Assembly: GCA_027490815.1 (NCBI GenBank)
Contig: JAIXXJ010000019.1
Location: forward strand, 124,001 to 188,000
DNA from: Streptomycetaceae bacterium
GTDB lineage: Bacteria; Actinomycetota; Actinomycetes; Nanopelagicales; Nanopelagicaceae
DNA: 64,000 nucleotides
Direction of reading: 5' to 3'
Positions 32,452 through 34,182 of this stretch are shown here, in pieces; position 1 is the stretch's first letter, and every line of letters starts with the position of its first letter. Below the pieces are notes generated by a model. It was not told the DNA's origin, searched no databases, and saw only the letters and a program-made list of their open reading frames with translations. The translations under genes and the position numbers were made by a program.

Positions 32452-32979
32452 GTGAGCAATGAAATCACGGGCGGGGGAATGCCAGATGGTTGGCAAAGAC
32501 TTTGGGCGCCACACCGTCTTGAATATCTAAAAGGTGAAAACCGTCCACTACCCGGGAACTTAGTCACCTGCCCTTTTTGCGAAATACCTGCTAAACCCGA
32601 TGAGGAAGGTCTAGTAGTTTTTAGAGGCGTAACGGCATACGTTGTTATGAATTTGTATCCTTACAATCCGGGACACTTATTGATCTGTGCAAACCGGCAT
32701 GTGGCTGACTTAACGCAATTAACAGATGAAGAACGCAATGAGATTTCCCAACTTACATCACATGCCATGAATGTGATTCGAAAGGTTTCTTCGCCACAAG
32801 GTTTTAATCTTGGAATGAACCAGGGTGAGGTATCGGGCGCAGGAATAGCCGAGCATATTCATCAACATGTCGTGCCCCGCTGGGGAGGCGATGCAAATTT
32901 CATGCCAATAATAGGAAAAACTAAAGTGATGCCTCAATTGCTTGCTCTAACGAGAGACGAAATAGCAGCTGCCTGGTAG
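32452..32979 (+). CDS. HIT-domain hydrolase, Ap4A phosphorylase-like
   Basis: Nucleotide-binding protein of 175 residues. The histidine triad is HIHQHVVP (His135, His137, His139), and a Cys40-x2-Cys43 pair near the N-terminus likely binds zinc with later histidines. Actinobacterial members beside pgsA resemble diadenosine tetraphosphate phosphorylases. It begins 3 bp after thrS with GTG and ends one base from the convergent pseudo-GTPase gene. Confidence 0.92.
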   Translation: MSNEITGGGMPDGWQRLWAPHRLEYLKGENRPLPGNLVTCPFCEIPAKPDEEGLVVFRGVTAYVVMNLYPYNPGHLLICANRHVADLTQLTDEERNEISQLTSHAMNVIRKVSSPQGFNLGMNQGEVSGAGIAEHIHQHVVPRWGGDANFMPIIGKTKVMPQLLALTRDEIAAAW

Positions 32980-33564
32980 TTAAACAGCAAGTTGTTTTAT
33001 TAGATCATTGACCTTATCAACGCCTATACCTTTATCTATCCAAAGCGGAATTGCTGGAAATTGCAGACCAGCAGCAAATGAACCTTCTCCATCGGATGTA
33101 AATTTTTCTAAATATTCTTCCCGAAACTCTTGAACCAGTGTTTGGTGCTCATCATCACTATTGGTGATCGTTGGGGGAGTTGTTGAGTAATCAATGATCT
33201 GCAAATCTGCCAGACTGATCAAAGCTACTGGTATTCCTAGATCATCGTGAAGGACTAAGAATGGAGTTATCAATTGATCAAATACTCTATTTGCAAGCAT
33301 TACCGCATCATCAAAATCAGCCTCTGATTTTTCTAACTGTGTAACGACAACTATTCGAGGAACCTGAAATTCATCTAAGGCTTGCCAATTCTCAATTGTT
33401 TGCTGGTCTATTCCTGTTGCTGGGTTTATGGCAAAGATCGCAAGATCGCTCTGACTGTGAGGCTCTTGGGAGTAGGTTCCTGAAAACGCTTTGGCCACGC
33501 TATGCGGGTCTGCGCTCTCGTGGCCATACACGTGAATTCCTATTTTGGTGTTCAAAGATTGCAC
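32980..33564 (-). CDS. EF-G-like pseudo-GTPase, single degenerate G domain
   Basis: A 194-residue soluble protein of unknown function that reads like the G domain of an EF-G (FusA2-type) factor with its nucleotide site lost. Residues 14-22 (GHESADPHS) sit where EF-G has GHSGAGKTT, so the P-loop Lys and Thr are gone; about 45 residues with switch I/II and DxxG are missing; SDLAIFAINPATGIDQQT matches the next strand and helix; TQLEKSEADF (75-84) replaces NKxDxxxADF. The C-terminus (GIGVDKVNDLI) matches the end of the EF-G G domain. No domains II-V follow. It is antisense between HIT and pgsA, with its own predicted leaderless promoter. Assignment by eye. Confidence 0.6.
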   Translation of the reverse strand: MQSLNTKIGIHVYGHESADPHSVAKAFSGTYSQEPHSQSDLAIFAINPATGIDQQTIENWQALDEFQVPRIVVVTQLEKSEADFDDAVMLANRVFDQLITPFLVLHDDLGIPVALISLADLQIIDYSTTPPTITNSDDEHQTLVQEFREEYLEKFTSDGEGSFAAGLQFPAIPLWIDKGIGVDKVNDLIKQLAV

Positions 33565-33588
33565 TGGGTCAGCCTACGATGTCCCTTG
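33565..33588. promoter_or_regulatory. overlapping divergent promoters of the pseudo-GTPase gene and pgsA
   Basis: AGCCTACGAT (33571-33580) contains two -10 elements that share the central TA: TAGGCT on the minus strand (33576-33571), 6 nt before GTG 33564, and TACGAT on the plus strand (33575-33580), 8 nt before ATG 33589. Both transcripts would be leaderless or almost so. The whole divergent gap is only 24 bp. Confidence 0.5.
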
Positions 33589-34182
33589 ATGATTAGTGCA
33601 AAGATCAAGCCGGCTGTTACGAGAGTTATCACACCCGTAGCCTCAATTGCCCTGCGATTGGGCATAACACCAAATGCCGTTACATGGACTGGAGCAATAG
33701 CAGTTGTTGCCGCAGCTTTGTATTTTTATCCTAAAGGTCAGTTTCTTCTTGGAACAATAGTCATCTCACTTGCAGCGCTCAGTGATTTGTTTGATGGAAC
33801 TATGGCCCGAATTTCAAAAGCTGGCTCAAGTAGGTGGGGAGGATTCTTAGACTCCACAATCGATCGAGTTACAGATTCGGCCATATTAGTCGGTGTAAGT
33901 CTTTATCTAATTCAGGAAGATGACAGACTAACTTCTGTGGTTCTAGTCGCCTTATTAACGGGAATGCTTGTTCCTTATGTAAGGGCGAAGGCAGAGTCAC
34001 TAGGAATTGAATGTTCAGGTGGACTAGCTGAGCGAACCGAGAGATTAATAATTGCATTGACCGCAATAGGTTTTGAAGGTTTGGGAGTTCCACACGTTCT
34101 TGCGGTTGGAATGTGGTCACTTGCTTTGCTCGGTTCTTTCACAGTTGTTCAACGGATGATTATCGTTAAACGGGCGATTTAA
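33589..34182 (+). CDS. pgsA: CDP-alcohol phosphatidyltransferase, probable phosphatidylinositol phosphate synthase
   Basis: Integral membrane enzyme (197 residues, about six helices) joining CDP-diacylglycerol to an inositol phosphate. The CDP-OH-P signature is complete: Asp66, Asp69-Gly70, Ala73-Arg74, Gly85, Asp88 and Asp92, in SDLFDGTMAR and GGFLDSTID. Function is narrowed from general phosphatidyltransferase to inositol phosphate by position: HIT-pgsA-acyltransferase-pimA is the actinobacterial PIM operon. The frame is open upstream to 33502, but ATG 33589 fits the domain start and avoids overlapping the antisense gene. Confidence 0.9.
   Translation: MISAKIKPAVTRVITPVASIALRLGITPNAVTWTGAIAVVAAALYFYPKGQFLLGTIVISLAALSDLFDGTMARISKAGSSRWGGFLDSTIDRVTDSAILVGVSLYLIQEDDRLTSVVLVALLTGMLVPYVRAKAESLGIECSGGLAERTERLIIALTAIGFEGLGVPHVLAVGMWSLALLGSFTVVQRMIIVKRAI

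Follow-up and report, generated by a model that had tools for sequence, protein, structure and literature searches.

In EF-G complexes the G' subdomain contacts the C-terminal domain of bL12 (PMC7395135), and a negatively charged G' region, which has been linked to L7/L12, is conserved in the EFG II subfamily (PMC3150367). The M. smegmatis EF-G2 has no ribosome-dependent GTPase activity (PMC9067457; PMC3150367), and its structure has been solved on the 70S ribosome (9k0z, which is also a Foldseek match of the protein described here). Actinobacterial EF-G2 (EFG II; NF009377; M. smegmatis fusA2) has five domains in ~700 aa and keeps the G1-G5 motifs intact, whereas the window, a stretch of 64,000 nt, carries a 194-aa ORF at the junction of HIT and pgsA that lacks G1-G3 and domains II-V. 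The features of this locus are as follows.

32452..32979, plus strand: HIT-family gene, convergent neighbour of the 194-aa ORF
32980..33564, minus strand: reduced EF-G2 of 194 aa from GTG to TAA, a putative pseudo-GTPase G domain that includes the G' subdomain
33025..33060, minus strand: last core strand and G5-position remnant FPAIPLWIDKGI, residues 169-180
33085..33279, minus strand: G' subdomain, residues 96-160, including the best conserved stretch TP[YF]LVLHDxxGxPxALI...DYS
33091..33153, minus strand: acidic G' helix, residues 138-158, EHxxLVxEFRxEYLE, matching the EF-G helix to which bL12 contact has been ascribed
33331..33342, minus strand: G4 remnant TQLE, residues 75-78, in place of TKLD/NKxD and variable within the host family
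33505..33525, minus strand: P-loop (G1) remnant GHESADP, residues 14-20, without the Lys and Thr of GKT (compare GHSGSGKT in the full-length EF-G2 of locus L117)
33571..33581, no strand assigned: conserved AGCCTACGATG with overlapping divergent -10-like hexamers for the ORF and pgsA, from the comparison of upstream regions
33589..34182, plus strand: pgsA (CDP-alcohol phosphatidyltransferase), divergent neighbour, its start inferred from the alignment of homologues

The TAA of the ORF directly meets the HIT stop (32977-32979), tail to tail with zero gap, and 24 bp separate the ORF start from the pgsA ATG at 33589. The preliminary description had reported an intact frame of 194 codons, and this holds: more than 250 homologues were found in the host family, nearly all with an open frame rather than one filled with stop codons.

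The similarity of the predicted protein to EF-G lies far above chance. The EF-Tu-type GTP-binding domain (GTP_EFTU, PF00009) is its only Pfam match above threshold, with 29.3 bits against a gathering cut-off of 26.5 bits, and several relatives score under that cut-off. The NCBIfam EF-G2 profile (NF009377) matches residues 39-160 (E=1.3e-17, 63.5 bits), and the closest solved structure by sequence is the M. smegmatis EF-G2 (9k0z, E=4.4e-10). The best match is EF-G2, not EF-G1 or any unrelated family, and the ORF lies at the same locus as EF-G2; its parent lineage is the actinobacterial EF-G2 of the EFG II subfamily. The two share the slot, the best profile, the G-domain fold and the G' signature (the DYS and DPEH region). 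The score of 63.5 bits, however, falls far short of the curated full-length cut-off of 890 bits for the EF-G2 equivalog; G1 (GxxxxGKT), G3 (DxPG) and G4 (NKxD/TKLD) are absent or replaced in the ORF and likewise in its homologues, and domains II-V are missing, the frame ending at HIT. The ORF is a derivative of EF-G2 and stands outside EF-G2 itself under the curated definition. It also resembles domain I of canonical EF-G (EFG I) in fold, G' subdomain and order of elements, but lacks the nucleotide motifs, the switches and the translocation domains, and the sequence signature of its G' is of the EF-G2 type, unlike that of canonical EF-G.

The AlphaFold model of the ORF (pLDDT 91.9, pTM 0.88) retrieved EF-G structures and the M. 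smegmatis EF-G2 in Foldseek, and VIA-align superimposed 192 of its 194 residues on residues 5-281 of S. aureus EF-G with a Z of 21.0 and an rmsd of 2.6, many other EF-G structures giving Z between 18 and 21. The model thus has the predicted fold of the EF-G G domain including G', as the comparison with EF-G domain I proposed in the preliminary description had anticipated.

That description had regarded the ORF as inserted antisense into the HIT-pgsA junction, which does not agree with the occupancy of the slot elsewhere. In several other actinobacterial families (L121, L122, L124, L137 and L150-L153) this slot is taken by full-length EF-G2 (~700 aa) in the same orientation, and therefore the ORF is not an insertion, and an insertion or mobile origin is rejected: by position it is the orthologue of actinobacterial EF-G2, shortened in place to the G-domain core with G'. 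Inside the host family, full-length EF-G2 was seen in the slot of a single genome, in one genus (G140, locus L135), where GHSGSGKT and DTPG are intact and the score of 1094 bits exceeds the NF009377 cut-off. A scan of viral contigs gave no relative in support of a viral origin, and a search of a phage collection gave one weak match, to an unannotated contig and at the level of EF-G. A split gene with relocated domains II-V was also rejected, as no orphan remainder appeared among the matches listed in the EF-G2 profile search.

The family-wide search found the ORF in 277 of 296 host-family genomes (a few of these matches being canonical EF-G only), in all 17 of 17 genera and in 106 of the 108 genomes of good quality. 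When 30 genomes without the ORF or with a weak match were searched for HIT, 28 lacked HIT as well, and the remaining two end at contig ends, one of them still showing the C-terminus of the ORF. Because the genomes without the ORF also lack HIT or have a contig end there, their lack of the ORF is not taken as real loss, and no true loss was seen among host-family genomes with an intact locus. The gene order thrS>HIT>ORF<pgsA>patA> is complete in about 100 of 132 loci, and most of the others show the same order from thrS to patA, cut by contig ends; L093 (G325) differs from the other loci in that no HIT was detected between its thrS and the ORF. Between close relatives the dN/dS of the ORF is 0.05-0.10 (Nei-Gojobori), similar to that of pgsA and somewhat higher than those of HIT and thrS. 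Two of the checks put forward in the preliminary description, homologues with conserved synteny and purifying selection, thus both came out in its favour, as did its central proposal of a stand-alone, constrained EF-G pseudo-GTPase without domains II-V. Judged by sequence, the loss of the catalytic and nucleotide motifs together with purifying selection qualifies the ORF product as a probable pseudo-GTPase; like pseudo-GTPases generally, it combines a GTPase fold with degenerate catalytic motifs under selection. The window's own assembly (93% complete) shows no canonical EF-G at E<=1e-30, while close relatives have one, and this is probably an assembly gap.

It is also evident that the shortening is not confined to the host family. 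A class-wide search revealed further short EF-G2 forms at the same slot in f39 (344-360 aa), f34 (201-423 aa) and G355 (359 aa), and genomes with reduced forms carry canonical EF-G only, with no second EF-G2. On the tree of thrS, HIT, pgsA and patA, parsimony requires seven changes between full and reduced states, five of them forced by well-supported branches. AU tests reject a single clade of the reduced f34 rows (p 6e-5) and a single clade of the reduced f1 and f39 rows (p 0.0017); within the host family, a single reduction shared by genus g40 and the rest was not rejected (p 0.10). Parsimony and the AU tests together indicate at least four independent shortenings of EF-G2, and the number is probably 5-7. 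In the reduced forms the profile positions up to ~147, with the P-loop, the switches and DxPG (at 130), are gone, and a core of ~115 residues (profile positions ~150-262) from strand 4 through the first G' helix is common to them. Exceptions to the loss are L147, whose match at positions 53-86 shows that a degenerate P-loop is still there, and L142, where the profile match begins at 119; G190 is too divergent to judge and matched only at 210-258. EF-G2 has a third fate, outright loss: at L171, L174, L175 and L176 of other actinobacteria HIT and pgsA adjoin with nothing in the slot between them, so that the role of EF-G2 must be dispensable in some backgrounds. Forms found in single genomes of f34 could be decaying genes.

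In the open-access literature searched, we came across no account of the reduced form of EF-G2, nor of any stand-alone pseudo-GTPase with a translational GTPase as its ancestor, one paper there being loosely related to the latter. The earlier remark that no described family matches the ORF stands for the reduced form and fails for its parent, the known EF-G2/EFG II lineage.

The form that runs through the host family has neither domains II-V nor either switch, and its P-loop lysine, DxPG and NKxD side chains are gone, in agreement with the motif losses first listed; what is retained extends from strand 4 to helix 4 with most of the G' subdomain; in the 194-aa form the G' helices beyond the first are mostly deleted. 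With the P-loop Lys and Thr, DxPG, the NKxD side chains and both switches (I and II) gone, we infer that the product lacks GTPase activity, and very probably it does not bind GTP either. An alignment of 71 homologues contains 8 invariant and 23 nearly invariant columns. Information content peaks in the G' strands, with the acidic G' helix also high; the minimum falls in the former P-loop and helix 1 region, and values are low too in loop 127-137 and the last helix (helix 5). The acidic helix has a net charge of -5 in the ORF and -4.8 on average over the 71 homologues, and the whole protein is very acidic (net charge about -20). T100, P101, H106, F163, P170 and P173 are strongly conserved and atypical for EF-G1; such residues could mark a new partner.

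The 'own predicted promoter' of the preliminary description found no support in a general promoter scan of the ORF, which gave none better than chance, so that a strong sigma-70 promoter was rejected, although a conserved divergent -10-like element exists. On the minus strand the element AGCCTACGATG contains TAGGCT, 6 nt ahead of the ORF GTG and at leaderless spacing; on the plus strand it contains TACGAT, ahead of pgsA. Among 81 upstream regions, 65 have TANNNT at leaderless spacing, and of 122 loci classed by a script as reduced-form, a class including a few full-length loci by mistake, 108 carry CCTACGAT ahead of pgsA. These results suggest that AGCCTACGATG may act as a divergent promoter common to the ORF and pgsA, the ORF being translated leaderless. 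Some loci with full-length EF-G2 have related CTACGAT elements upstream of pgsA.

What the protein does can be approached through the parts that were kept. The motor parts were lost repeatedly and the G' core was retained, which suggests that a binding function was already present in full-length EF-G2, and this fits the M. smegmatis EF-G2 with its lack of ribosome-dependent GTPase activity. The reading we lean to, with rather less than even confidence, is that the product is a GTP-independent ligand of the translation machinery that would bind the ribosomal stalk (bL12) through G'. Of the roles raised in the preliminary description, ribosome binding is the likeliest guess. Once bound to the stalk, the product might compete with EF-G, IF2, EF-Tu or RF3, or tune their recruitment, for example as a brake or store during slow growth. 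The bL12 interface may be incomplete, as little is left of the G' helices that follow the first. Since these helices are missing and some invariant residues are specific to the lineage, the main rival to stalk binding is that the reduced domain forms a stable scaffold for a newly acquired partner outside the ribosome, such as an enzyme of membrane lipids or of metabolism, its EF-G ancestry explaining the fold only. The lineage-specific residues (TPYLVLH, F163 and PAIP) are absent from EF-G1, the second half of G' is deleted and the slot adjoining pgsA/patA never changes, all of which would fit such a scaffold. LVLH and GSP, however, are already present in the full-length EF-G2 of G140, and therefore some of the signature residues are older than the reduction; the synteny was inherited from EF-G2, not gained with a new role, and several lineages independently keep the same core, suggesting a function that existed before. 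We consider a new partner somewhat unlikely.

A partner within translation other than the stalk is less probable still. The product might bind canonical EF-G or another translational factor, in a dominant-negative-like or chaperone-like manner, as could be imagined from a fold derived from EF-G in cells that otherwise have canonical EF-G only; but translational G domains are not known to dimerise with each other, and mimicry of intramolecular contacts would need the switch and domain II surfaces, which were lost. Regulation of the divergent pgsA operon, at the protein or the transcription level, is very improbable. The preliminary description had proposed a regulator of the flanking phospholipid genes, and nothing speaks for it beyond the divergent promoter region in common, a 24-bp spacer with its conserved overlapping -10-like element, whereas full-length EF-G2 loci have the same divergent layout, the fold is no known DNA-binding one and a protein with a net charge of -20 is very acidic. 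Least credible of all is a slowly decaying, functionless relic of EF-G2. A streamlined lineage, the occurrence of intermediate lengths (201-423 aa) and the outright loss of EF-G2 elsewhere would fit decay, but for the host family it is contradicted by dN/dS of 0.05-0.10 over many pairs, frames that stay open in nearly all homologues, the lack of any demonstrated loss and the columns that are invariant (8) or nearly so (23) in 71 sequences.

Extended to the other reduced forms, stalk binding through G' leads to a broader and more doubtful proposal, namely that the G' half of EF-G2 may be an autonomous GTP-independent regulator at the ribosome stalk, freed repeatedly by convergent reduction in small-genome actinobacteria. 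If so, a stand-alone pseudo-translational-GTPase would be nearly universal in an abundant freshwater bacterial family, and such convergent conversion of a core translation factor into a pseudo-GTPase would be an unusual way for streamlined genomes to reuse their machinery. The function of actinobacterial EF-G2 is unsettled; its recurrent stripping to the same core would show which part matters, and the reduced form offers a small soluble protein for experimental tests.

Individual forms depart from the common pattern. That of genus g40 is 329 aa long, and its model (pLDDT 83) shows the same core as the 194-aa ORF followed by a C-terminal tail with a ferredoxin-like beta-alpha-beta-beta-alpha-beta arrangement, as in EF-G domains III and V. 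The tail model aligns to domain III or V depending on the chain, and in both of two sequences the signal for domain V scores above every one of 500 shuffles, by a margin of <1 bit, which makes a domain V tail in g40 suggestive. In G190, a longer, fast-evolving homologue of 27% identity (L120:1435-2190) has a frame that overlaps the end of HIT. In G140, two extra ORFs, by eye homocysteine methyltransferase-like and RNA methyltransferase-like, lie between the full-length EF-G2 and HIT (L135:7114-8712).
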